NCBI RefSeq assembly: GCF_018257575.1
Contig: NZ_JAERJP010000004.1
Location: 124,001 to 188,000, forward strand
DNA: 64,000 nt
Reading direction: 5' to 3'
From: Tatumella sp. JGM91
GTDB taxonomy: Bacteria; Pseudomonadota; Gammaproteobacteria; Enterobacterales; Enterobacteriaceae
Shown here in pieces: positions 15,152-63,484 of this stretch. How positions within the stretch are numbered: position 1 is the stretch's first letter; the number at the start of each line of letters is the position of its first letter. A program made the translations under genes and the position numbers. The notes beneath the pieces are model-generated. The model did no database searches and was not told the origin of the DNA. It saw only the letters and a program-made list of their open reading frames with translations.

Positions 15152-16507
15152 TCAGCGTTTTTTACGACGGGATCGCCGCACAACACCAGCGATAATCAGC
15201 CCGGCAACAATCACCACGGCAGCGATCATTCCGCCCCTGGCTATCGACAACAGCGGGGACGGTGCACCTCCTGCCCGCAGTACTGCGACCCGTTGCGGAC
15301 TGGTCTGTACCTCCCTGTCACCGAAGGTGCTGAAGATATAATTAACCAGTGTCGAGATTTGCTGATCATTCATACTGCTGCTGAATGACGGCATAGCCTG
15401 TCCGTGGTCAGGGGTTAATCCGTCGAGAATCGCCATTACCGCATTATCAGCCACCGGACGCTGCAGCGCCGCATTGCCGTACAGCGCCGGCAATCCGCGG
15501 CTGCCCTGGCCCGATAACTGATGGCAGGTTGCACAGTGTTCTGAATAAAGCTGAGCCCCCGGTGAGGCACTGTCGTTCATCAGCGCCAGCTCAGAGACTC
15601 GCGGCGGGCTGGCAGGTAACCGGCCCGGCGCGGCATTCTCCGGCTGAGGTGTAGTGGCGCGAATATAGGTCACGATGGCATTAATATCGCTGGCTGACAG
15701 TCGGCTAAAGCTTTTATTAATCGCTTCCAGCATCGGACCACCCGCCTGTGAACCGGTCGGTGAATGGCCGGCAGACAGATAGCTGGCCAAATCACTGGCA
15801 GACCAGTGACCGATACCGGCATGCATATCCGGGGTGATATTCGGGGCAAACCAGGTACCGAGCGAAGCACCGGCCAGCGCCTGACCCTGTTTCTCGGCCA
15901 TCAGGGCATTGCGCGGGGTATGGCAGGTTGAACAGTGGGCCAGTCCCTGTACCAGGTAAGCCCCGCGGTTCCAGGCCGCAGACTGACTGCTGTCCTCAGT
16001 ATAAGGCTTATCCCCCGCAAACAGCAGATTCCACCCGGCCATGGAAAAACGGATATTGAACGGGAACGGCAAGTCGGTGGCCCGGGTTTTTTGATCGACC
16101 GGAGCCACAGCCTGCATAAAGTATGCATACAGGGCCTGCATATCCTGATCGGTGATTCTGGCATAAGAGGTATAAGGCATTGCCGGGTACAGGCGGGCAC
16201 CGTCTTTTCTGATGCCCTGGCGCACTGCTTTTTCGAAATCGGCCAGTGAATAGTCACCGATACCGTCAGTTTTCGACGGGGTGATATTGGTCGATATAAT
16301 TTTACCGATTGGGGTGGCTATCGCCAGCCCGCCGGCAAAAGGCTTACCGCCATCGGTCGTGTGACAAGCGGCACAGTCCCCGGCGACAGCCAAATATTGC
16401 CCTTTTTCAACCAGCCGTTGTCCGGCACTATCTTCCGCAAAGGCGGTGCTGGTCAGCACCAGCCCGCTGAGCGCAGCCGCAATGCTCAGAGAAAGCAATC
16501 TTTTCAT
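15152..16507 (-). CDS. Triheme cytochrome c subunit of a membrane-bound sugar-acid dehydrogenase
   Basis: Periplasmic, membrane-anchored electron carrier that passes electrons from the flavoprotein subunit to ubiquinone. It has 451 residues: a signal peptide (LSLSIAAALSGLVLTSTAFA, cleaved near 24), three CxxCH heme sites at 45-49 (CAACH), 192-196 (CSTCH) and 325-329 (CATCH), and one C-terminal transmembrane helix followed by a basic tail. This is the standard build of the cytochrome subunit of gluconate 2-dehydrogenase, 2-ketogluconate dehydrogenase and related alcohol/sorbitol dehydrogenases. It is last in the operon after the flavoprotein (11-base gap). The small-large-cytochrome order is that described for gndSLC/kgd-type operons. 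Confidence 0.92.
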   Translation of the reverse strand: MKRLLSLSIAAALSGLVLTSTAFAEDSAGQRLVEKGQYLAVAGDCAACHTTDGGKPFAGGLAIATPIGKIISTNITPSKTDGIGDYSLADFEKAVRQGIRKDGARLYPAMPYTSYARITDQDMQALYAYFMQAVAPVDQKTRATDLPFPFNIRFSMAGWNLLFAGDKPYTEDSSQSAAWNRGAYLVQGLAHCSTCHTPRNALMAEKQGQALAGASLGTWFAPNITPDMHAGIGHWSASDLASYLSAGHSPTGSQAGGPMLEAINKSFSRLSASDINAIVTYIRATTPQPENAAPGRLPASPPRVSELALMNDSASPGAQLYSEHCATCHQLSGQGSRGLPALYGNAALQRPVADNAVMAILDGLTPDHGQAMPSFSSSMNDQQISTLVNYIFSTFGDREVQTSPQRVAVLRAGGAPSPLLSIARGGMIAAVVIVAGLIIAGVVRRSRRKKR

Positions 16508-16518
16508 CGGCGATCCCC

Positions 16519-18123
16519 TCAGAGTTTGCCAAGAATGGCGTCAGCAGTACGTAAACCGAGCGCACAGGCAGTCAGCGTTGAGTTGGCTGTTGCCACTGTC
16601 GGCATCACCCCGGTAGAAACCATGTACAGATTATCGAATTCCCAGGCTTTTCCTGTCGGGTCAGTCACTGAGGTTTTTTCATCGTGGCCCATGGCCAGGG
16701 TGCCGGTAATATGCTGGTTATTACTGTAAACGCCGGGCGGTGAATAGCGGACATCCGTGGCACCCAGCAGACTGGCAATTTCTGCGTACACTTTCAGGGA
16801 GTGCTGCATACCTCTTTCGATATACCCGTCATAGGAATAAGAGAATGCCGGTACCGGTAAGCCCAGAGCATCTTTTTTACGGGTACTGAGCATGGTGCGG
16901 TTATCAGGATCTGGTAATTGTTCGAGCACGTTTTTAATACTCAGTTCATGGGATGCACGGTAGACAATGGCATTATCGAGGTCTGCGCCGGTCAGTCCTT
17001 CTTTAATTGCCCCGGCAGTGACTCCGGCAACCCGTGATGAGTTAGAAATATCAATACGGAATGCGGCCGATTCGGAACGGAATGCACCGTCACGTAATTG
17101 CTGAATAGATGACGGGCTCATCGGGCCCCGGCCCGGCCAGAGTGGCTCATCCACATAAAAGGTGGCAGAGTTTGAGGGATGATCCATCAGGTTACGCCCC
17201 AGCTGATCATAGTTATTACACAGACCCCGGGGGTTTTTATCATCTGCCGACAGCATCAGGATACGCGGTATTTCTATCGCATTTGCGGCCATCACAAAAA
17301 CGTCCGCGGTCACCCGATGGGATTGTTTATTCCAGTCGTAGTAATGCAGCGCGGTGATTTTGCCGTGACCGTTGTGTTCAAGTTTATAGACCACCGCCTG
17401 CGGAATCAGCTCTACTCCGGCTATTTCTGCCGCTGTGGCGGCGATCCCCCCGTGATACTGTGCATCAATCGGGCAAACCGGCATACAGTTGTTGTTACCG
17501 CAACACTGGGGACGGCCATCATAAGGAACCGAATTACGGCCGGTGGTATTGGTCAGCACTTCGTAACGGGGGGCCAGACGTGCGGTCACCCGCTGTTCAA
17601 GGTAAGACATGGTAACGCCCGGCATCGGGTAAGGGTGCCGGCGTGGTGAATATTTAGCCATAGCGTCCGGGCCGGAGACTCCCCACAGCAGTTCCGCTTC
17701 GTAATAGTAGGGTTCCAGGTCCTCGTAACTGATCGGCCAGTCGCGGCCGACGCCGTACAGGGATTTCAGACGGAAATCGTTGGGTAACAAGCGCCAGGCT
17801 TGTGCTGCCCAGTGCCAGCTGGTACCGCCGACCACCCTCAGATATTCCGGCTTATAAGCTTTCGGCCCGGTCTGGTCCAGGTAGCCGTTATCTTCCGGTT
17901 TATAGTCGGGGAACGGGGCGATTTCTGAATTCGGGTAAGGGGCGATAAAATCGTCTTTACGGGCCGAGTGGCGAAAATTATTGACGATTTGATCACGCTG
18001 GATGCGCGGGCCGGCTTCCAGCATCAGGACCTTGCGACCGGCCAGCGCCAGTTTTCGGGCGGTCAGGGAACCGACAACACCGGAGCCGACCACAACGATA
18101 TCGGCAGAAATAGTTTCAGACAT
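16519..18123 (-). CDS. GMC-family flavoprotein subunit of a sugar-acid dehydrogenase
   Basis: Catalytic FAD subunit (534 residues) of the three-part periplasmic dehydrogenase, most likely oxidising gluconate or 2-ketogluconate. The N-terminal dinucleotide fold reads DIVVVGSGVVGSLTARKLALAG. The block VVGGTSWHWAAQAWRLLPNDF and the cysteine-rich stretch CCGNNNCMPVCP (a probable iron-sulfur ligand set seen in this family) follow. The C-terminal part has the GMC NxHxxGTLxMG-type motif (NNQHITGTLAMGHDEK). There is no Sec signal; in this family it is exported folded, hitch-hiking on the Tat signal of the small subunit. ATG at 18123 is preferred to a GTG three codons upstream because of GAGAAG spacing. 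The paralogue is at 55773. Confidence 0.92.
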   Translation of the reverse strand: MSETISADIVVVGSGVVGSLTARKLALAGRKVLMLEAGPRIQRDQIVNNFRHSARKDDFIAPYPNSEIAPFPDYKPEDNGYLDQTGPKAYKPEYLRVVGGTSWHWAAQAWRLLPNDFRLKSLYGVGRDWPISYEDLEPYYYEAELLWGVSGPDAMAKYSPRRHPYPMPGVTMSYLEQRVTARLAPRYEVLTNTTGRNSVPYDGRPQCCGNNNCMPVCPIDAQYHGGIAATAAEIAGVELIPQAVVYKLEHNGHGKITALHYYDWNKQSHRVTADVFVMAANAIEIPRILMLSADDKNPRGLCNNYDQLGRNLMDHPSNSATFYVDEPLWPGRGPMSPSSIQQLRDGAFRSESAAFRIDISNSSRVAGVTAGAIKEGLTGADLDNAIVYRASHELSIKNVLEQLPDPDNRTMLSTRKKDALGLPVPAFSYSYDGYIERGMQHSLKVYAEIASLLGATDVRYSPPGVYSNNQHITGTLAMGHDEKTSVTDPTGKAWEFDNLYMVSTGVMPTVATANSTLTACALGLRTADAILGKL

Positions 18124-18173
18124 TCTGATCACTTCTCACAGGATAAAATTTAACAGTTCACCGGCAGGGCCGG

Positions 18174-18677
18174 TTAAAAAGGTCTGGCCGCCCAGCTGCC
18201 ATAAGCGCCATAGGCGTAAGTCGGGGGGTTAAGCACCGCGGCAACCTGCTGGTTTGCCAGGTCATCAACGTACGCCACACAAATGGCTTTATCACCGCTT
18301 CCGGCAATCCCCAGGTACCAGCCCGTCAGGATCAGCGCCGGTAAGTCAGCCAGATCGGTCACACGACTGTCGGCGGCCAGCCGCGTTTTCAGGGCCGCTG
18401 CAGGGACTGAATTCTGAGTGACCCACTGTTTCAGACGTGACAGACGTTGCGGGAACTGGCTATCAATGTGGCTGAAAGCAGCAAACAGCGCGCGACTGTA
18501 TTCTGCAGGCAGAGTGTTACGGCCGGTTAACAGCATGGAGATATCACTAAAGTCGCTATTGTCAGGTGTGTCGGCGAAAGCCGGTAGTATCGCTGACGGT
18601 AGCAGTGATGTGGCAGCCAGCGCGCCCATTCCCTGCAATATTCGCCTGCGCGATATCTTATTAAACATATCAATCAT
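18174..18677 (-). CDS. Small (gamma) subunit of sugar-acid dehydrogenase, with Tat signal
   Basis: First gene of the operon, 167 residues. A twin-arginine signal (KISRRRILQGMGALAATSLLP) occupies the first 35 residues and carries the folded complex through the Tat system. The mature part contains ILTGWYLGIAG and the C-terminal PPTYAYGAYGSWAARPF, both characteristic of the gluconate/sorbitol dehydrogenase small subunit. AGGA lies seven bases before the ATG at 18677; a second ATG three codons on is possible. The specific substrate of the complex cannot be decided from this subunit. Confidence 0.88.
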   Translation of the reverse strand: MIDMFNKISRRRILQGMGALAATSLLPSAILPAFADTPDNSDFSDISMLLTGRNTLPAEYSRALFAAFSHIDSQFPQRLSRLKQWVTQNSVPAAALKTRLAADSRVTDLADLPALILTGWYLGIAGSGDKAICVAYVDDLANQQVAAVLNPPTYAYGAYGSWAARPF

Positions 18678-53536: not shown

Positions 53537-54130
53537 ATGAATAACAACAATAAGCCTGATCAACGGCAGCAGCTGAGCGAGCAAGGCCTGCGTCGTCGCC
53601 GGTTGCTTGGCCAGACCAGCGGGCTGGTGGCGACGTTTGCCATAGGTTCGGCAGTGGCCGGCGCAACACTCAGTAACAGCGCAACCGCAGCACCTGCACC
53701 TGCACCGGCAGCCCCGGATACCCGGACCCTGAACCAGTTTATGAAAACATCACGTTTTCTGACCGGACACCACAGTCTTGATCTGACTATGGGTGAGCGT
53801 TTGTATGTTGCCTTTGCAGATAAAAATCCGCAGTTCACAACTCAGCTGGCGGCACTGAACCAATGGATAGCCGATAAACAGCCCGCAGATGTCGAAGCCC
53901 TGCAGAGTCAGTTACAGGGGCAACCGCTACATGACCTGATGATGTCAGTGATTAAAGGCTGGTATCTGGGAGTGACTGATGACAGTCACCATGCAAAAGT
54001 TTACGGCTACCAGAATGCCCTGATGTATCAGGTGCCAAGAGACGGGATGGTGATTCCTACCTACGCACATAATGGTCCCGATTACTGGACTGCCGATCCG
54101 CCTCCGGTCGATCGTCTGCTGACCTTTTAA
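53537..54130 (+). CDS. Small (gamma) subunit of second sugar-acid dehydrogenase, Tat signal
   Basis: First gene of the second complex, 197 residues. A twin-arginine signal (LRRRRLLGQTSGLVATFAIGSAVAG) extends to about residue 52 and is followed by an Ala-Pro repeat (APAPAPAAP) as a linker. The mature part has FLTGHHSLDLTMGERLYVAF, VIKGWYLGVTDD and the C-terminal VIPTYAHNGPDYWTADPP typical of the family. It is longer than the small subunit at 18174, which ends in a different tail. AGGAAATTT precedes the ATG. Confidence 0.9.
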   Translation: MNNNNKPDQRQQLSEQGLRRRRLLGQTSGLVATFAIGSAVAGATLSNSATAAPAPAPAAPDTRTLNQFMKTSRFLTGHHSLDLTMGERLYVAFADKNPQFTTQLAALNQWIADKQPADVEALQSQLQGQPLHDLMMSVIKGWYLGVTDDSHHAKVYGYQNALMYQVPRDGMVIPTYAHNGPDYWTADPPPVDRLLTF

Positions 54131-54243
54131 ACAGAACACAACAAACTTCACGGTCGCGGTATACCGTCCGACTGTGGCTTTTTATTGTCTGCTGTTGTTA
54201 CCCGTAACAAAGGTCTGATAGCAGAAATTTTTCCGGAGTTAAT

Positions 54244-55731
54244 GTGAAATATCAGAAAGCGATACATGCAAAAAAAGCAGCCGGTTTTCGCCGAACGCTG
54301 CTGAGTGTCTGTCTCGGGGTCAGCGCATTAGGTGCACTGCCGGCATTTGCCGCGGAGCAGGTTCCTGTCAGTCAGCCCGCGGTAGATAACAGCGCCGATG
54401 CCTTACTTAAGCAAGGGCATTACCTGGCGATAGCCGCTGACTGTGCGGCTTGTCATACTGATCCAGAGACGAAGAAAACCTTTGCCGGTGGTTATGCTAT
54501 TCACTCCCCGATGGGCGTCATTTATTCGACCAATATCACGCCGTCGAAGCAGTACGGGATTGGTAATTATACAGAAGCACAGTTCGAACAGGCAGTACGT
54601 CACGGTATCCGTGCCGATGGCAGCCATCTGTACCCGGCGATGCCTTATACCTCTTATGCCGGGCTGACAGATAAAGATGTCCATGCCCTGTATTACTACT
54701 TTACCCACGCGGTACAGCCGGTGGAGCAGGCAAACCGGCCAACTAACCTCGGTTTCCCGTTTAATATCCGTCAGGCGATGTGGGGCTGGAACCTGTTGTT
54801 CCTGAACCAGAAACCTTATCGTGATGATCCGTCACAGAGTGCTGACTGGAACCGCGGTAAATATCTGGTAGCTAACCTTGAGCACTGCGGTGAGTGTCAT
54901 ACGCCGCGTAATATCATGATGGGTACCGAAACCGGGAATGCTGAGTATAGCGGTGCCGCATTAGGCAGCTGGTATGCACCTAACCTGACATCAGATCGTC
55001 TCAGCGGCCTGGGCAGCTGGCAGCGTGATCAGTTAATGACTTACCTGAAAACCGGTCATGTGACCGGCAAAGCCCAGGCCGCCGGACCGATGGCCGAAGC
55101 GATTACCAACAGCCTGCAATATCTTGATGATAAAGATATCGGGGCCATTGTGACCTATCTGCAAAGTCTGCCGGCGGTCAGCCAGCCTCATCAGGCGAAA
55201 CCTACCGGTGATTTCGGGACATCGGCGGGTGCCAATCCGGACTCTGCGGTACGTGGCACCCAGCCGATGGGATCAGCGCTGCCTGAGGATATGAGCGGAG
55301 AGGCACTTTACGATACCACCTGTGCCAGCTGTCACCAGTCTTCCGGTGCCGGTACCGAAGATCATTTCTATCCGTCGTTATTCAATAATACCGCGACCGG
55401 GGGGAATACACCGAACAACCTGGTTTCGGCCATTCTGTTCGGTGTACAGCGTGAAGTGAAAGGTAAGCAAGTGCTGATGCCGGCTTTCGGACCAGGATCT
55501 GATGTTCAGTCATTAAATGATCAGCAGGTTGCGAAACTCAGTAATTATATCTTTAAACAGTTTGGCAACCCACAGCTTTCGGTTACCGCGGATCAGGTGA
55601 AAACCTTGCGTGAAGGGGGAGCTCAGCCTTTCCTGGCGAAATACGCGGCTGCCGGCTCGGTGGCAGGCGGAATTATTCTGCTGCTGATTATTGTTTTAAT
55701 TATTGTACGGGTTTCACGTAAACGTCGCTGA
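54244..55731 (+). CDS. Triheme cytochrome c subunit of second sugar-acid dehydrogenase
   Basis: 495 residues, starting at GTG behind CCGGAG. A signal peptide ends near LPAFAAE (about 37). Heme sites are CAACH at about 67-71, CGECH (in the block EHCGECHTPRNIMMG) and CASCH (in the block TTCASCHQSSGAGT). A single C-terminal helix (AGGIILLLIIVLIIV) and a basic end anchor it in the cytoplasmic membrane. It passes electrons from the flavoprotein to quinone. It lies between the small subunit (113-base gap) and the flavoprotein (41-base gap), an order different from the first complex. Confidence 0.93.
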   Translation: MKYQKAIHAKKAAGFRRTLLSVCLGVSALGALPAFAAEQVPVSQPAVDNSADALLKQGHYLAIAADCAACHTDPETKKTFAGGYAIHSPMGVIYSTNITPSKQYGIGNYTEAQFEQAVRHGIRADGSHLYPAMPYTSYAGLTDKDVHALYYYFTHAVQPVEQANRPTNLGFPFNIRQAMWGWNLLFLNQKPYRDDPSQSADWNRGKYLVANLEHCGECHTPRNIMMGTETGNAEYSGAALGSWYAPNLTSDRLSGLGSWQRDQLMTYLKTGHVTGKAQAAGPMAEAITNSLQYLDDKDIGAIVTYLQSLPAVSQPHQAKPTGDFGTSAGANPDSAVRGTQPMGSALPEDMSGEALYDTTCASCHQSSGAGTEDHFYPSLFNNTATGGNTPNNLVSAILFGVQREVKGKQVLMPAFGPGSDVQSLNDQQVAKLSNYIFKQFGNPQLSVTADQVKTLREGGAQPFLAKYAAAGSVAGGIILLLIIVLIIVRVSRKRR

Positions 55732-55772
55732 GATACCGGGACTTATTGAATTTGTAGTATTTAGAGGTGGTT

Positions 55773-57404
55773 ATGTCTGAACAATATAGCGCAGATGTGG
55801 TAGTGGTTGGTGGCGGCATCTGTGGTGGTACTGTAGCAAAAGAACTGGCGGAAGCCGGGTTATCCGTATTAGTGCTGGATGCTGGTCCGCGCTGGGAAAG
55901 GGGTGAAGTGGTTGAGAACTGGCGTAATATGCCGCCGGTGAATAAAGCCGAATCTGATTATGCGACACCTTACCCTGCAGAGCCCTGGGCGGTTCATCCG
56001 CAGCTGAACCCCTATAATAATTATCCTCAGGTGACCGGCCCGGATGCGAGCGCTTTCCGTCAGGGAATGATTAAAGGGGTCGGTGGCACCACCTGGCACT
56101 GGGCAGCCTCCTGCTGGCGTTTTCTGCCTCATGACTTACAACTGTATTCAACCTATGGTGTTGGCCGTGACTGGGTAGTGACTTACGATGAGCTGGAAGA
56201 TTATTACTACCGTGCGGAAGTCCTGATCGGGGTTAATGGGCCGAACGATACTTCCCTGAAATATGTTGCACCGCGTAAAAAACCATTCCCGATGGAACCT
56301 ATGCCTTATGGCCCGGCTGACCGTCTGTTTACCAAAGTGGTTGCCACGGCAGGCTATGATAATACACCGGTGCCTCAGGGCCGTAACAGCCGGCCTTATG
56401 ATGGTCGTCCGCAATGTTGTGGTAATAACAACTGTATGCCTATTTGTCCGATCGGGGCGATGTATAACGGTATTCACAGTATTATTAAAGCGGAAAAAGC
56501 CGGAGCCAAAGTACTGCCAAATGCGGTGGTCTATAAATTCGATACGGACGAGAATAATAATATTACCGCGCTGTATTACTACGACCCGGATAAAAATTCA
56601 CACCGTGTGACCGCACGTACGTTTGTGCTGGCAGGGAACGGGATTGAAACGCCGAAGCTGCTGCTGATGGCGGCTAACGATCGTAACCCGAAAGGTATTG
56701 CTAACAGTTCCGATATGGTCGGCCGTAATATGATGGACCACCCGGGGATCCTGATGAGCTTCCAGGCGGCAGAACCGGTCTGGACAGGGGGTGGATCGGT
56801 GCAGATGAGTTCTATCACCAACTTCCGTGACGGAGACTTCCGTCGTGAACAATCGGCAATTCAGATCGGCATGAACAATACCTCACAAAACCATAAAGCC
56901 GGTGTTAAAGCACTGCAAATGGGGCTGGTGGGTAAAAAACTGGATGAGGAAATTCGTCGTCGTGCGGCATGTGGAATGGATATCTATGTTAACCATGACA
57001 TTCTGGCGAACCCGGATAACCGTCTGACCCTGAGTACAGAATATAAAGATAAGCTGGGCATTCCTTATCCGCATGTGACCTATGATGTGGGTGATTATGT
57101 CCGTAAGGCTGCGGTTTCTTCCCGCGAGCACCTGATGACTATCGCCAGGTTGTTTGGCGCGACCGAGATTGAAATGACCCCTTACTTTAACCCGAATAAC
57201 CATATTATGGGGGGCACCATCGGCGGTCATGATCCGAAAGACTCGGTGGTGGATGGCTGGATGCGTACCCACGATCACCAGAACCTGTATATCGCTTCCG
57301 GCGGGGTTATGGCGGCAGCGGGTACTGTGAACTCAACCCTGAGTATGGTTGCTTTGTCACTGCGTGCCTGTGACAGTATTAAGCGCGACCTGCAACACGG
57401 TTAA
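55773..57404 (+). CDS. GMC-family flavoprotein subunit of second sugar-acid dehydrogenase
   Basis: Catalytic FAD subunit of 543 residues, paralogous to the one at 16519. FAD fold DVVVVGGGICGGTVAKELAEAG; GVGGTTWHWAASCWRFLPHDL; cysteine-rich CCGNNNCMPICP; and the C-terminal NHIMGGTIGGHDPKDSVVDGW with the catalytic-region His-Asn. It lacks its own signal and should be exported with the Tat-tagged small subunit. One of the two complexes is probably gluconate 2-dehydrogenase and the other a 2-ketogluconate or related dehydrogenase; sequence reading alone does not settle which. ATG 55773 is preferred (GAGG upstream) over GTG 55767. Confidence 0.92.
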   Translation: MSEQYSADVVVVGGGICGGTVAKELAEAGLSVLVLDAGPRWERGEVVENWRNMPPVNKAESDYATPYPAEPWAVHPQLNPYNNYPQVTGPDASAFRQGMIKGVGGTTWHWAASCWRFLPHDLQLYSTYGVGRDWVVTYDELEDYYYRAEVLIGVNGPNDTSLKYVAPRKKPFPMEPMPYGPADRLFTKVVATAGYDNTPVPQGRNSRPYDGRPQCCGNNNCMPICPIGAMYNGIHSIIKAEKAGAKVLPNAVVYKFDTDENNNITALYYYDPDKNSHRVTARTFVLAGNGIETPKLLLMAANDRNPKGIANSSDMVGRNMMDHPGILMSFQAAEPVWTGGGSVQMSSITNFRDGDFRREQSAIQIGMNNTSQNHKAGVKALQMGLVGKKLDEEIRRRAACGMDIYVNHDILANPDNRLTLSTEYKDKLGIPYPHVTYDVGDYVRKAAVSSREHLMTIARLFGATEIEMTPYFNPNNHIMGGTIGGHDPKDSVVDGWMRTHDHQNLYIASGGVMAAAGTVNSTLSMVALSLRACDSIKRDLQHG

Positions 57405-57467: not shown

Positions 57468-58367
57468 TCACAGGGAGGATGATGAAGCCGATTCCCCGGC
57501 CCGCGAGGGTGATAAGGGGCGGGAAGGACGGCTGTAATTGATCCCGATGGCGACAGCGATCAGGCAGCAACCGGCAAACAGTCTCAGCAGGGGAACATCG
57601 TTACCCCACAGCAGCATATTAATAATCAGCCCGACGGGCACATGCAATTCGTTGAAAACCGACAGGGTAGCCACTGAAACCAGAGTGCTGCCTTTTGCCA
57701 GCCAGTAACTGCCCAGCGCGGTAGCAACCACACTCAGATAAATAAGCACTGACCATTGGGCCCCGGACTGGGGTAAATGTCCCTGCTGCCCGAAAAAATA
57801 GTACAGGGGACCGGTAATACAGATAGCGCCAAGGAAGAAATGACCAAATAGTCGTGGCAGGGCGACATCCGGTTTATATTTCAGTAACAGCCGGCGGCAC
57901 AACACCTGCCCGGCGGCAAACGTCAGGTTAGCCAACTGTAAAAGCCAGAAGCCTTTCCAGAAGTGTCCTGTCAGGGGATGATAGTGGATCACTATTCCGC
58001 CGGAAACGGCAAACATTGCCGCCAGCAGCGTCCATGGATTAAAACGCCGTTCCAGGGCATTATTGATCAGGCTGATATATAACGGTGTCTGGGTGGTAAA
58101 TAACAGCATTTCCGGCACGGTCAGCAGAGTGTAGCTTTGATAGGACAGGGCATAGGTGATACCAAATTGCAGCGCACCTGCGGCCCAGAGACCGGCAATA
58201 AGCCGTGACGGCAGGTTCCGCCACACCATAAACGGCAGAAAAATAAGGGTACCTGCAAGGGTACGGATAAATACGGCAAAGTAACTGTCAACCTGGCCCG
58301 CCAGAAAATGGCCGGTCAGGCTAAAAGAAGAGCCCCAGAGAAAGGTAACGATCGCGAGATACCACAC
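57468..58367 (-). CDS. EamA-family (DMT) transporter
   Basis: Inner-membrane exporter of about 299 residues with ten hydrophobic segments in two EamA halves (IVTFLWGSSFSLTGHFLAG at the start; YLSVVATALGSYWLAKGSTLVSVATLSVF in the second half). Such proteins export metabolites or amino acids. The open frame reaches 58433, but a good promoter (TTGCAC, 18 bases, TATAAT) overlaps that part, so translation must begin later; the only usable codon is GTG at 58367, with a weak AGG upstream. It is divergent from the nitroreductase-ligase-thiolase genes and may export their product. Confidence 0.82.
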   Translation of the reverse strand: MWYLAIVTFLWGSSFSLTGHFLAGQVDSYFAVFIRTLAGTLIFLPFMVWRNLPSRLIAGLWAAGALQFGITYALSYQSYTLLTVPEMLLFTTQTPLYISLINNALERRFNPWTLLAAMFAVSGGIVIHYHPLTGHFWKGFWLLQLANLTFAAGQVLCRRLLLKYKPDVALPRLFGHFFLGAICITGPLYYFFGQQGHLPQSGAQWSVLIYLSVVATALGSYWLAKGSTLVSVATLSVFNELHVPVGLIINMLLWGNDVPLLRLFAGCCLIAVAIGINYSRPSRPLSPSRAGESASSSSL

Positions 58368-58403
58368 AGACTTGTAAACCTGTAGTTGAAAATAAAGTTT
58401 ACG

Positions 58404-58433
58404 ATTATAAAGAGACTCTTCACTACAGTGCAA
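58404..58433 (-). promoter_or_regulatory. Sigma-70-type promoter of the EamA gene
   Basis: On the minus strand -35 TTGCAC (58433-58428) and -10 TATAAT (58409-58404) are separated by 18 bases. The predicted transcript starts near 58397, which limits the translation start of the EamA gene. Confidence 0.65.
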
Positions 58434-58487
58434 GTGTCCGGTATCCTGCCAGCAGATATTGTATTGCTACTTCAGGTTGTCCCCTTA

Positions 58488-59192
58488 ATGCAGACTTCAG
58501 AACACCCGCTGCCGGATTTTCTGGCTGATCGCCATTCCTGCCGTGCTTTTTTAACCGATGCCGTTCCCCTGACGGATATACAGACTATGCTTACCGCGGC
58601 CCGCAGCGCCCCGAGCGGCGCAAACCTGCAACCAGGGGCTTTCCATGTATTTACCGGACAACCCCTGCAGACGCTAACCCGCCGCTTATCGAAAATTGCT
58701 GAGACAACGCCGCCCGAAGAGGAGCTTTACAGTTATTTTCCCCGGCCGATGTCTGCGGTACTGAAACAACGGCAACGGGCGGCCGGTTATGCACTGTATC
58801 GGGCGCTGGGTATCGAAAAGCGTGATATTGCCGGACGAAAAGGTCAATTTGCTGCTAACTATCGCTTCTTCGATGCACCGGTTGGTATGGTTGTGACAAT
58901 TCAGCGGGATATGGGGGCAGGCTGTTATATGGACCTCGGTATGGCGCTGATGAATCTGTTTCTGACCGCCGGTCATCTTGGCTACGGCTGTTGCGGTATC
59001 GGGGCGCTGGCAAATTACGGACGCGGTCTGCATCAGCTACTGGATCTTCCTGACGATCAGCTGGTGGTGTGTGGCATTGCGCTGGGGCGGCCGGACCCCC
59101 TGGCTGCGGTGAATCAGTTCCGTACCGACAGGGCGGCACTGGATGAGTTTTCTGTATTACATGGCTTTAATCAAGGAGAGCAAGGGCAATGA
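58488..59192 (+). CDS. Nitroreductase-family flavoprotein
   Basis: 234 residues. The FMN-binding N terminus reads DRHSCRAFLTDAVPLTDIQTMLTAARSAPSGANLQP, and the C-terminal FMN block GYGCCGIGALANYGRGLHQLLDLPDDQLVVCGIALGRPD is typical of the nitroreductase superfamily. It uses FMN to reduce or oxidise a small molecule. Its stop overlaps the start of the acyl-CoA-synthetase-like gene (ATGA), so it is the first of three coupled genes, which suggests a dedicated step rather than general detoxification. ATG 58488 has only a weak AGG upstream; longer versions would run into the divergent promoter. Confidence 0.87.
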   Translation: MQTSEHPLPDFLADRHSCRAFLTDAVPLTDIQTMLTAARSAPSGANLQPGAFHVFTGQPLQTLTRRLSKIAETTPPEEELYSYFPRPMSAVLKQRQRAAGYALYRALGIEKRDIAGRKGQFAANYRFFDAPVGMVVTIQRDMGAGCYMDLGMALMNLFLTAGHLGYGCCGIGALANYGRGLHQLLDLPDDQLVVCGIALGRPDPLAAVNQFRTDRAALDEFSVLHGFNQGEQGQ

Positions 59193-60343
59193 GTCAGTCA
59201 CAACCGGCGATTTCTTACCACGGACGGCCTCTTGCGACGGCTCGGGGAGAGCAGGCGGAGGCATTACGCCTGCTGACTGAACGTTACGGCCGGGGAAAAA
59301 GTTTTCGTGCAGTCAGTCAGGCACCGTGGATCGAAACGGTGGCCGATAACGATCATATTGAATGTACTACCTGTGGCAGTAGTGGCGCGCCGAAAGTTAT
59401 TCGTCGTCATCGTTTATCCTGGCAACGTACTTTTGATATCAATCAGCAGCTATTCGCACTTAATCATCATGATCGCAGTGCGGTATTTGGCGGATTAAAC
59501 CATTCACTGTCACTGTATGGTGTCTGTGAGTCGTTACACCTGGGGATCCCTCTGCATGTTACCGGAGGCATGCGGCCACGTAATCAGATTGCTTTACTGG
59601 CAGAGTTTGCGGTAACGATTCTTTATATTACGCCGACCCAGTTGCGTTTACTGACCAGTAGCGGACAGCGATTACCTGATGTCCGGTTGATCCTGTGTGG
59701 CGGCGGTAAGCTGGATACGAAAACCCGTCAGCGGGCAATGGAATGTTTTCCTTCTGCGCAAATCCATGAGTTTTACGGTGCTTCAGAGACCAGTTTTATC
59801 ACTCTGGCGGATGATCAGACCCCCGAAGGTTCAGTGGGCAAAGCTTATCCCGGAGTCCGTATTGATATCCGGCATCCGCGGGACGGTGCCGGTGAAGTCT
59901 GGGTAAGCAGTCCTTACCTGTTCGATGGTTACGCCGCAGGAGGCAGTGCTGAAACCCGTATTGACGGCGATTTTATCACCGTCGGCGAACTGGGCTGGCT
60001 GGATGAACAAGGCTATTTATGGCTCGCTGGCCGGCGCAGCCGAATGGTGACCATCGCCGATCAGAATGTTTTCCCGGAAGCCGCAGAAGCGATTATCAGC
60101 CAGCGACTGGAGCAGGGGGCTGTGGCGGTTATTGCCTGCGCTGACCCTCTGCGCGGGCATGTCCTGCATGCGTTTATTCAGGGTCAGGCGGATCCGTTGC
60201 TGGAAAAACAACTACGCGCCGATATCAGTCAGCAGCTGGGCAAAGAAAGGGTACCCCGCTGGTTTCATTTTATCGCTGACTTTCCGTTACTGAGTGGCGG
60301 TAAACCTGATCTGCAACGTCTGGAGGCATCGCTGAATACGTGA
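59189..60343 (+). CDS. Short AMP-binding acyl-CoA synthetase-like enzyme
   Basis: 384 residues, well below the 500-600 usual for acyl-CoA synthetases because the N-terminal region before the P-loop is short. The adenylate motifs remain: ECTTCGSSGAPKVIRRHR (phosphate loop, about 58-75), HEFYGASETSFITL, and VGELGWLDEQGYLWLAGRRSRMV (the ribose Asp region appears as GE..W). C-terminal FHFIADFPLLSGGKPDLQRLE supplies the catalytic lysine region. It should adenylate a carboxylate and load it on CoA or a partner. It overlaps both neighbours by four bases. Confidence 0.86.
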   Translation: MSQSQPAISYHGRPLATARGEQAEALRLLTERYGRGKSFRAVSQAPWIETVADNDHIECTTCGSSGAPKVIRRHRLSWQRTFDINQQLFALNHHDRSAVFGGLNHSLSLYGVCESLHLGIPLHVTGGMRPRNQIALLAEFAVTILYITPTQLRLLTSSGQRLPDVRLILCGGGKLDTKTRQRAMECFPSAQIHEFYGASETSFITLADDQTPEGSVGKAYPGVRIDIRHPRDGAGEVWVSSPYLFDGYAAGGSAETRIDGDFITVGELGWLDEQGYLWLAGRRSRMVTIADQNVFPEAAEAIISQRLEQGAVAVIACADPLRGHVLHAFIQGQADPLLEKQLRADISQQLGKERVPRWFHFIADFPLLSGGKPDLQRLEASLNT

Positions 60344-61482
60344 GTGTTATTATTGCAGCATTACGTACCGCAGTCGTTCCGCGCGGCGGTGCATTTAACC
60401 AGTTACAGCCACATCAGCTGGCGGCACCTGTGGCTGAGGCCTTATTAACCCAGGCAGGGATCGCCCGCGGTGAGGTTTCGCAGCTTATTCTGGCAAACTC
60501 CCTCGGTGCCGGGGGCAATCCGGCGCGGGTGACAGCGCTGGCGGCGGGGCTGGATCAGGTGTCCGGGATCAGTATTGATACCCAGTGTGCCGGAGGGCTG
60601 GATGCGGTCGCCCTGGCCTGCTCGCTGGTGGACTCGGGGATGGCTGATATTGTGATGGCTGGTGGTGCAGAAAGTTATTCCCGGCGGCCACTACGGGCCA
60701 GAACATTCCCGGACCAGCGGCCCGCCGAATTTTATACCCGGCCAGCATTTACCCCGCAGGCCGACACCGATCCGGATATGACCGAAGCGGCCAGCGCCCT
60801 GGCCGATAAGTATCATATCACCCGTCGTGAGCAGGATAATTATGCGCTGGAAAGTCATCGTAAGGCACTGCTGGCGGCCAGTGAGTTAGGGCGTGAGATT
60901 GTGCCGGTTGCCGGTGTAACGTCTGACGTATACAGCAGGGCCCTTTCGCCACGTCTGGCGCAGCGGGCACCGTTACTGGCAGGATCGGTCAGTCTGGTTT
61001 CCACCGCCGTTGAAGCAGATGGCGCTGCGCTTTGTGTTGTGGTGTCAGAGCAGGTGGCAGCAAGACTTCAGCCAGCCTTTGCCCTGACCTGCAACGGATA
61101 TCAGACTGCCGGTGCTGACAGCCGTTTACCCGGAGCCGCGCCGGTTACGGTGATCCGCCGCTTATTTGAGCGTTATCCGCAGTTTGATCCGCGTCTCTGT
61201 GTGACAGAGATGATGGAGGCCTATGCGGCACAGGCGATAGTATGTATCCGGGAAAGCGGGCTGACTGCCGCGAATGTAAATCTGGGCGGCGGCGCGCTTG
61301 CCAGGGGCCACCCGATCGGTGCCTCAGGGACTATTCTGCTGTGTCGTTTATTCCATGAACTCCGCCGTCACCGGCAGCAACAGGGGGTATGTGCAATAGC
61401 GGCAGCCGGCGGAATTGGGTCGGCCATGCTGCTGAGCCGCTGGAACAGACCGGCGATATCATCCATGACGGGGTTGCCATAA
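60340..61482 (+). CDS. Atypical thiolase-family protein
   Basis: 380 residues, starting at GTG inside the preceding stop (GTGA). The nucleophile Cys83 is present (IDTQCAGGLDAVALACSL), as is the GGGALARGHPIGASGTILL block with the catalytic His. Two canonical positions are changed: the NEAFA motif reads MEAYAAQ, and the C-terminal CIGGG cysteine is replaced (CAIAAAGGIGSA). It may therefore condense or transfer acyl groups by an altered mechanism, like the KAS/SCP2-type relatives. It is the third member of the nitroreductase-ligase-thiolase operon. Confidence 0.85.
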   Translation: MSVIIAALRTAVVPRGGAFNQLQPHQLAAPVAEALLTQAGIARGEVSQLILANSLGAGGNPARVTALAAGLDQVSGISIDTQCAGGLDAVALACSLVDSGMADIVMAGGAESYSRRPLRARTFPDQRPAEFYTRPAFTPQADTDPDMTEAASALADKYHITRREQDNYALESHRKALLAASELGREIVPVAGVTSDVYSRALSPRLAQRAPLLAGSVSLVSTAVEADGAALCVVVSEQVAARLQPAFALTCNGYQTAGADSRLPGAAPVTVIRRLFERYPQFDPRLCVTEMMEAYAAQAIVCIRESGLTAANVNLGGGALARGHPIGASGTILLCRLFHELRRHRQQQGVCAIAAAGGIGSAMLLSRWNRPAISSMTGLP

Positions 61483-61933: not shown

Positions 61934-62674
61934 ATGAAAGATAATCACCCGTTGCAGTCATCGCGCCGTGACGTATTGAAAAAAACCTTTGCCTTGTCAC
62001 TGATATCAGTCACAGGCGCAGCGGCTATTCCGTTGCCGGCAATGGCGTTCAGCGATATCCTGAGTAAGGAAGAGCGTGATAAAATGACCCCTGATGAGAT
62101 TATTGAACATTTCAGACAGGGTAATATCAGATTCCGTCAGAATAAGCCGATGGAGCATGATTACCTGGCGCAAAAACGCAGAACATCATCAGGACAATAT
62201 CCTGCTGCAGTGATACTGAGTTGTATTGATTCGCGCGCCCCGGCTGAAATTGTACTGGATACAGGGATCGGTGAAGTATTTAATTCCCGGGTGGCAGGTA
62301 ATATCAGTAACCGTGATATTCTGGGCAGTATGAAATATTCCTGTGCTATTGCAGGGGCAAAAGTTGTGTTTGTATTAGGTCATACCCGCTGCGGGGCTGT
62401 CCGCGGTGCGATAGATAATGCCGAACTGGGTAATCTGACTGGCTTGTTAAACGAAATTAAACCCGCGATTAGCCAGACCGTCTATCAGGGAGAACGAAAA
62501 GGAAGTAATTATGATTTTGTTGATGCAGTTTCCCGGAAAAATACAGAACTGACTATCGGTAATATCCGTAAAAATAGCCCGGTACTGAATTCCATGGAGC
62601 AGGAAGGAAAAATTAAGATTATTGGCGGGATGTACCATCTGATTGGCGGGCGGGTGGAAATCTTCGAAGTCTGA
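61934..62674 (+). CDS. Tat-exported beta-carbonic anhydrase
   Basis: 246 residues. The N terminus is a twin-arginine signal (SSRRDVLKKTFALSLISV, cleaved near AMA at about 36), so the enzyme should act in the periplasm. The beta-carbonic anhydrase core follows: ILSCIDSRAPAEIVLDTGIGEVFNSRVAGNI with zinc Cys and the Asp-Arg pair, and VFVLGHTRCGAVRGAI with zinc His and Cys. It hydrates CO2 outside the cytoplasm, unlike the CynT-like enzyme at 45397. AGGAGA precedes the ATG at 61934. It is a single gene. Confidence 0.92.
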   Translation: MKDNHPLQSSRRDVLKKTFALSLISVTGAAAIPLPAMAFSDILSKEERDKMTPDEIIEHFRQGNIRFRQNKPMEHDYLAQKRRTSSGQYPAAVILSCIDSRAPAEIVLDTGIGEVFNSRVAGNISNRDILGSMKYSCAIAGAKVVFVLGHTRCGAVRGAIDNAELGNLTGLLNEIKPAISQTVYQGERKGSNYDFVDAVSRKNTELTIGNIRKNSPVLNSMEQEGKIKIIGGMYHLIGGRVEIFEV

Positions 62675-63166: not shown

Positions 63167-63484
63167 GAGAAATTGCTGATGCCCTTCAGACCCGTGGCGT
63201 GAAGCTTGCTCTGGGCAACAGATCCGATGGGTAAGATGTTCTTTAATGTGCTGGCGACGTTTGCCGGGTTTGAAGGCGATCTGATACGTCTTCGCACGCG
63301 CGAAGGGATGGCCATTGCACGGGCGAAAGGAAAACTGCGGGGGAAGCAGCCGAAGCTGTCAAATAAACAGCAGAAAGAGCTTTGCAGGATGCACGGAAGC
63401 GGCGAGTACTCTATCAGCGATCTGGCTGAATTATTCTCCGTCTCCCGTCCCACGGTCTATCGGACGCTTTCCCGTGGGAAATAA
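63160..63484 (+). pseudogene. Serine resolvase/invertase, C-terminal fragment with a frameshift
   Basis: The first frame gives NAREIADALQTRGVKLALG, then the reading shifts by one to TDPMGKMFFNVLATFAGFEGDLIRLRTREGMAIARAKGKLRGKQPKL and a C-terminal helix-turn-helix (SISDLAELFSVSRPTVYRTL). This is the distal part of a Tn3-type resolvase. The catalytic serine half is missing and several residues are lost at the frameshift, so it cannot be active. Confidence 0.85.

Follow-up and report, generated by a model that had tools for sequence, protein, structure and literature searches.

Two described systems, in Bacillus subtilis and Staphylococcus aureus, place a putative ligase and a thiolase-like protein under the biotin repressor BirA. 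BirA of B. subtilis binds the yhfU operator only when biotin and ATP are both present (PMC4016012), and BirA with biotin represses the yhfS-yhfT promoter of S. aureus (PMC6391492); in the passages of the literature that deal with this pair, YhfT and YhfS are called a putative ligase and acetyltransferase and are assigned no function. Here we analyse a locus within 64,000 nucleotides of Tatumella sp. JGM91 (contig NZ_JAERJP010000004.1, positions 124,001 to 188,000; this whole stretch is called the window), in which a transporter gene of the EamA type stands divergent from genes for a nitroreductase-family protein (NTR), an AMP-binding ligase (LIG) and a thiolase-fold protein (THL), together called the trio (Table 1). 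A pair of this kind under BirA is already known, and the window locus, with adjacent ligase and thiolase genes, predicted BirA control and a vitamin transporter, is a further variant. A study by Rodionov (2002), as other papers cite it, reportedly placed yhfT/yhfS in biotin operons. We lean towards reading the locus as a BirA-controlled biotin-acquisition module, whose operon would most likely act on the carboxyl group of a biotin vitamer brought in from outside and thereby recover or retain biotin.

Much of the gene content had been read from the sequence before. That sequence-only reading described nitroreductase-like, adenylating and thiolase-family proteins, the last with altered motifs, encoded by three genes joined by four-base overlaps. 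The overlaps are present (ATGA at 59189-59192 between NTR and LIG, GTGA at 60340-60343 between LIG and THL), and all four proteins score over their Pfam cut-offs (EamA 63 bits; Nitroreductase 89, or 88.8 against 23.5; AMP-binding 91, or 90.6 against 29.9; Thiolase_N/C 128/81). Its altered thiolase motifs recur throughout the close family of THL, and its carboxylate-activating enzyme agrees with the adenylation motifs that LIG keeps. A neighbourhood search, the check that it had proposed, found the four genes to be a conserved unit, with the same arrangement in all five other members of the genus searched. The statement that no pathway with this gene set was described holds in part: a ligase–thiolase pair under BirA had been described in B. 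subtilis yhfUTS and S. aureus yhfS-yhfT, but the passages concerned give those pairs no function and mention no nitroreductase beside them.

The setting of the operon is indicated by the region between the divergent genes. An intergenic site at 58372-58404 reads TTGTAAACC-N15-AGTTTACGA, which has the form of a biotin operator; against the BirA consensus, the palindrome TTGTAAACC-N15-GGTTTACAA, it matches at 16 of 18 positions. The strict operator pattern occurs once in the window and in none of 100 shuffles, and at only two places in the 3.5-Mb genome, the trio locus and a site flanked by bioA (by the look of the open reading frame, ORF) and bioB (TIGR00433, 412 bits). The same genome encodes the helix-turn-helix domain of a BirA repressor (G000:C23; TIGR00122, 74.9 bits, cut-off 70). 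Nine enterobacterial trio loci could be compared, namely those of the window, five further genus members and three relatives (G141, G313 and G373) taken from a scan of 392 genomes of the family, in which eight matched; the ninth, G005, evidently lay outside that draw. All nine have a single site scoring 15/18 or more, its half-sites 15 bases apart, intergenic and next to the start of the transporter gene, and when the 300 bases upstream of NTR were shuffled 500 times at each locus the best site observed was never equalled. A site nearer to NTR in L035 scores 14, and L034 and L037 have a second, weaker operator-like site. A consensus scan for a sigma-70 promoter at the operator, a kind of scan that says little, gave none. 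Binding of BirA at 58372-58404 is thus predicted from sequence conservation, and because the shared promoter region carries the predicted operator, the setting appears to be biotin nutrition rather than the orphan small-molecule pathway that had been proposed.

The transporter points in the same direction. Over 299 columns the EamA protein shares 37% identity with the Escherichia coli biotin importer BioP (YigM, b3827; E 3e-62), TIGR00950 is the best NCBIfam match of both, and a search at E≤1e-20 turned up no second homologue in any of the six genus genomes. BioY was found in none of those six genomes. The divergent neighbours of the trio in G141, G313 and G373 are instead BioY, an energy-coupling factor (ECF) ATPase and a T-component-like gene, the last having a weak NCBIfam score or none. 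Elsewhere in their genomes G313 and G373 retain a homologue of BioP (38%). Two unrelated families of biotin importer therefore alternate at one place beside the same enzymes. The earlier reading had a drug/metabolite transporter (DMT) exporter sharing the promoter and carrying the product outwards: the divergent DMT/EamA gene is there, but its protein is nearest to an importer and its place is taken by BioY and an ECF ATPase in three relatives, so that import, rather than export of a product, is the probable direction.

Claisen thiolases use four catalytic residues, Cys89, Asn316, His348 and Cys378, the last being the base of the ordinary Claisen reaction. Aligned to solved thiolases, THL keeps the acyl-accepting cysteine (Cys83) and the histidine (His324) and has Met292 at the Asn316 position and Ala354 at the Cys378 position, two of the four being replaced. 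Within an alignment of its close family (87 rows, six enterobacterial sequences being counted twice), and among rows having the column, the catalytic cysteine is present in 85/85 and the histidine in 84/84, with methionine at the Asn316 position in 84/85 and alanine at the Cys378 position in 84/84. Eleven further copies, read by eye, comprise seven with Met and Ala (L155 among them), three with Asn and Gly (L157-L159) and one with His and Ala (L160), so the Asn316 position varies but the Cys378 base is lost in every copy read. That loss makes acyl transfer or decarboxylative condensation more plausible than the ordinary thiolase reaction. The best NCBIfam match of THL is TIGR01930, the acetyl-CoA C-acyltransferase subfamily (249.5 bits, above the cut-off of 240.55), and its predicted model has the full thiolase fold (pLDDT 92.9; against 4xl3, Z 56.7, root-mean-square deviation (rmsd) 1.7, 366 residues aligned). 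The second match is PRK06690 (227 bits, cut-off 498).

LIG keeps a C-terminal lysine, K372, which we take to be the A10 lysine and which is invariant in alignments of 9 and of 25 rows. Compared with full-length relatives, its N-terminal half lacks about 100 residues, and the shortening is internal to that half rather than a simple truncation of the start, residue 1 of the predicted model (pLDDT 90) aligning to residue 14 of MenE (5bur, the best match; Z 31.5, rmsd 3.1, 368 aligned). Since the ligase ORFs of L164-L166 have 503-509 residues, the short form looks derived. LIG also resembles malonyl-CoA synthetases, and its best NCBIfam match is PRK07638 (201 bits, cut-off 518), with residue 59 aligned to profile position 149; that cut-off is passed by one of 14 control genomes. 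We take B. subtilis YhfT and YhfS to be the PRK07638 and PRK06690 proteins, and by profile LIG and THL would then be their distant relatives. The structure comparison of the LIG and THL models identified general folds only and no substrate. For NTR, the nearest solved structure by sequence is 3gr3, a Bartonella nitroreductase. Just upstream of the full-length ligase in L164 (3009-3437) and L165 (3047-3457) lies an ORF resembling, by eye, a hotdog-type thioesterase, which in that setting would release an acyl-CoA product; no biotin transporter gene is nearby.

The distribution of biotin synthesis genes separates the ligase–thiolase pair from de novo synthesis. Among 46 carrier genomes, bioB was above the cut-off in 16 and absent in 30, and bioD was found in 12; the 30 without bioB comprise 29 of the 39 genomes reached through their loci, whose completeness is not told, and that of Tatumella saanichensis. 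The window's own genome has bioB and bioD, and by eye a bioC-like gene. T. saanichensis (G001, locus L034) has no bioB above the cut-off and only a second, weaker bioD-like gene, and retains the BioP-like gene, the trio and the operator; it is probably a biotin auxotroph in a genus in which five of the six members have bioB. In the family of Mameliella alba (248 genomes, two scans being taken as the same draw, of which one scored the eight best candidates per genome at E≤1e-60), the ligase was found in 43 genomes, bioB in 32 and both in three, bioB being absent from 216/248, which shows that the module is kept in genomes missing bioB. Growth tests bear on two carriers directly. Pacificibacter marinus DSM 25228 (L076: LIG, THL, NTR and BioY) and Sulfitobacter sp. 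DFL-14 (L089: LIG, THL and BioY) lack bioFADB; the study that tested them classes both as biotin auxotrophs and saw no growth with desthiobiotin (PMC9561691). On these published tests the module confers neither prototrophy nor the use of desthiobiotin on them.

Beyond the Enterobacteriaceae the ligase–thiolase pair again often stands beside biotin transporter genes. When GTDB contigs were searched with an alignment of the ligase, 236 relatives emerged; the best 80, mostly Rhodobacterales, were analysed by tblastn: THL was present at 78/80 loci, BioM at 63/80, BioY at 56/80 and NTR at 36/80, and in Rhodobacterales the pair also lies beside bioMNY. Sixty loci had 4.5 kb or more of sequence on each side; a BioY or EamA gene was present in 48 of these, always with THL. 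In a sample of 398 Pseudomonadota genomes the thiolase family was found in 12, the window's own included, and nine of the other eleven loci were read; BioY stood beside the pair in six and NTR in one only (L160). That locus, from a gammaproteobacterium of another family (G885), has BioM, BioY, LIG, THL and NTR all on one strand (identities of 49% for NTR, 31% for LIG and 41% for THL), so the full set including the nitroreductase forms one gene run outside the enterobacteria too; it is the most complete single run outside Salipiger abyssi, in which ligase, thiolase, ATPase, T component, BioY and nitroreductase genes run in one direction. In a ligase tree (midpoint root only, L160 left out) the nine enterobacterial sequences form a single clade that neighbours Breoghania and Mangrovicoccus among alphaproteobacterial rows, a position that suggests lateral transfer.

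The set is also found on plasmids. In PLSDB the ligase occurs in 23 records, and relatives of NTR (at least 52% identity) in 22, all among those 23, with the two matches 1.1-3.1 kb apart; the next-best NTR match has 40% identity. All seven plasmid regions opened contain BioY, six by annotation together with an AMP-binding protein and a thiolase, and the seventh, an unannotated Microvirga record, by tblastn, with bioM, bioN, bioY, LIG and THL in a row and no NTR. Five Rhodobacterales plasmids (L140, L141, L143, L145 and L146) carry a cluster of biotin transporter, ligase, thiolase and nitroreductase, which in L141 and L143 is close to repABC genes. Because the transporter–trio cluster sits on plasmids, biotin acquisition in Rhodobacterales can be plasmid-borne. 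Control by BioR in the alphaproteobacteria was considered and rejected: exact boxes lie beside bioM only in L073 and L074, and the one-mismatch boxes of L060, L066, L072 and L081 sit elsewhere. A search for a shared inverted repeat upstream of LIG or bioM gave nothing above shuffles.

Vitamer salvage or retention coupled to import fits these data best. Processing of an imported compound is favoured by the linkage to importers, the predicted repression by biotin in enterobacteria and the presence of the genes where bioB is missing. When biotin is scarce, BirA would leave the operator and both sides would be expressed, giving leftward the BioP-like importer and rightward the nitroreductase, ligase and altered thiolase. 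LIG would adenylate the carboxylate of an imported biotin vitamer and the acyl group would be transferred through the cysteine of THL, and NTR, where present, would carry out a flavin-dependent redox step, either oxidation or reduction. One specific form of this scheme, a repair pathway, is rather improbable. Bisnorbiotin is a side-chain-shortened biotin produced by beta-oxidation in other organisms; such a compound might be imported, activated by the ligase and extended on THL by decarboxylative condensation, the flavoprotein and house-keeping reductases then reducing the product until biotin is restored. Loss of Cys378 fits this form, since decarboxylative condensation needs no such base.

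Several observations weigh against a biotin-acquisition module. The operator is confined to the enterobacterial loci: none of 72 non-enterobacterial ligase upstreams has one, the best operator-like site of the gammaproteobacterial L160 reaches only 12/18, and BioR-like boxes occur in only 2/59 bioM and 0/73 ligase upstreams. No operator of this form lies upstream of E. coli bioP (best 12/18), a gene, yigM, that BirA is said to repress (PMC4554459). A transporter is not always at hand, with neither a BioY nor an EamA gene at 12 of the 60 well-flanked loci and at three of the nine further loci (L164, L165 and L168, the last with only a weak ABC ATPase match), and NTR is not beside LIG in one clade of 32 rows. 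The EamA protein scores under the TIGR00950 cut-off (188 against 230 bits, E. coli BioP scoring 310), for which reason it is called BioP-like here. In the Mameliella alba family no enrichment of the ligase was seen where bioB is lacking (40/43 against 176/205, Fisher p 0.32). Finally, YhfU of B. subtilis, the BioY-like protein of yhfUTS, has been reported to be the S component for pantothenate (PMC11487621), and the connection with biotin could be correspondingly less direct; that warning is weaker here, since the partner in the window's genus is BioP-like.

Other roles were weighed against the same evidence. The ligase and thiolase-like enzyme might spare biotin, feeding acyl units to fatty-acid synthesis when acetyl-CoA carboxylase fails in biotin-starved cells. 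Predicted BirA control, the likeness of LIG to malonyl-CoA synthetases and MenE, and the naming of YhfT/YhfS as putative ligase and acetyltransferase would suit such a role, and the growth-test study raises an unknown route or a bypass of biotin dependency for two other strains, which may or may not carry the pair, that grew without added biotin (PMC9561691). However, a bypass leaves the biotin-transporter linkage unexplained, THL has lost the Cys378 base, and P. marinus DSM 25228 and Sulfitobacter DFL-14 are by the same source auxotrophs, so that no full bypass is apparent there; we regard it as unlikely. Metabolic trapping, in which the ligase would turn imported biotin into biotinyl-CoA, or biotinyl-Cys on the thiolase, to be held in the cell, shares the linkage to importers and accords with the acyl-Cys and His kept in THL, but the biotin protein ligase uses free biotin and the flavoprotein would be left without a part, which makes this, too, rather improbable.

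Little credence is given to an alternative source of pimeloyl precursor for de novo biotin, a dicarboxyl-CoA made by the ligase being extended by the thiolase-like enzyme in the manner of BioZ. Its attractions are that a thiolase without the Claisen base would be suited to decarboxylative condensation, that the window's genome has bioB and bioD, and that in G141 bioC and bioD lie a few kb from the trio (bioD about 2.4 kb away, in opposite orientation with two ORFs between). Nevertheless a bioC-like gene is already present in the window's genome, and de novo pimeloyl synthesis is made unlikely by the 30/46 carriers without bioB and the two carrier strains, auxotrophs without bioFADB, that did not grow on desthiobiotin; as the main role it was rejected on these grounds. 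A role in pantothenate or CoA metabolism, with the BioY-like partner carrying pantothenate and biotin acting as a signal only, would follow the report on YhfU, encoded with YhfT/YhfS. We consider it very improbable: the transporter of the window's genus is BioP-like and not BioY, in 27 of the other 38 carrier genomes BioY gave just one row, and a biotin importer is needed because most tested carriers lack bioB. The secondary-metabolite operon with its exporter, as first proposed, accounts for a compact run of ligase, thiolase and flavin enzyme genes but for neither the operator nor the BioP-like and BioY neighbours, and is scarcely credible.

Compared with the described pairs, these loci add independent settings: the transporter may be BioP-like or BioMNY, the nitroreductase may be there or not, and the genes lie on chromosomes as well as plasmids, in both gamma- and alphaproteobacteria. 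Since many carriers lack bioB, they also separate the ligase–thiolase pair from de novo synthesis. If salvage is the role, a vitamer other than biotin or desthiobiotin would support biotin auxotrophs, in the sea among other places. Were the repair pathway correct, it would serve cells unable to make biotin, and the same role would fall to YhfT/YhfS in Bacillus and Staphylococcus. Culturable strains with published responses to biotin and desthiobiotin (PMC9561691) make the salvage reading testable. A limited literature search gave no earlier account of the divergent BioP-like layout, of a nitroreductase joined to the pair, of the shortened ligase, of a thiolase base lost throughout the family or of the argument based on genomes lacking bioB, an earlier mention of some loci in Rodionov 2002 being possible.

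Table 1. Features of the biotin-linked locus, in window positions.
Feature	Position	Strand	Remarks
EamA/DMT transporter, BioP (YigM)-like, probable biotin importer	57468..58367	-	299 aa from likely GTG start
EamA longest ORF	57468-58433	-	readable from TTG at 58433
Predicted BirA (biotin repressor) operator	58372..58404	.	between divergent EamA and NTR genes, 16/18 match
Nitroreductase-family flavoprotein (NTR), 234 aa	58488..59192	+	PF00881
ANL-superfamily acyl-AMP/CoA ligase (LIG), 384 aa	59189..60343	+	PF00501
Thiolase-fold protein (THL), 380 aa	60340..61482	+	PF00108/PF02803

For the EamA gene the GTG start is more likely than the TTG, because the operator would fall within the longer ORF; the resulting length is that of E. 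coli BioP. The NTR ORF spans 58386-59192, with the in-frame ATG at 58488 within it. Just downstream of the cluster (61934-62674) is a gene for a PRK15219-type beta-carbonic anhydrase (410 bits, cut-off 221), which begins with a stretch resembling an export signal; biotin carboxylases take bicarbonate as a substrate. Two sets, each of a small secreted subunit, a cytochrome with multiple haem motifs and a GMC-type oxidoreductase, were seen by eye at 53537-57404, bordering the biotin cluster, and at 15152-18677, and resemble three-subunit membrane gluconate or sorbitol dehydrogenases. Near the end of the window (63206-63484) an ORF looks, also by eye, like the C-terminal part of a serine recombinase.

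The EamA protein resembles E. coli BioP over its full length, with the same best family model, whereas it falls below the cut-off of that model and the E. coli gene stands beside metR and not an enzyme operon. The ECF biotin transporter bioMNY takes the transporter's position next to the pair at three enterobacterial and many alphaproteobacterial loci, but BioY is missing from the genus of the window. THL shares with the biosynthetic thiolases of Zoogloea ramigera and Clostridium acetobutylicum the fold (Z about 56 over 365 residues), the acyl-Cys and His and a score above the TIGR01930 cut-off, and differs in the replacement of their Asn316 and Cys378 by Met and Ala across its close family, Cys378 being lost in the more distant copies as well. 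S. aureus yhfS-yhfT is likewise a BirA-controlled ligase–thiolase pair without assigned function, for which the passages of its source mention neither a nitroreductase nor an adjacent transporter. From B. subtilis yhfUTS (a BioY-like S component, the YhfT ligase and the YhfS thiolase) the window locus differs in its BioP-like transporter and its nitroreductase; its ligase lacks about 100 residues by comparison, and its scores fall well short of the PRK07638 and PRK06690 cut-offs. The locus agrees with yhfUTS in having these as its nearest NCBIfam models (PRK07638 the best for the ligase, PRK06690 the second for the thiolase), in the predicted BirA operator and, among its relatives, in the BioY-type transporter.

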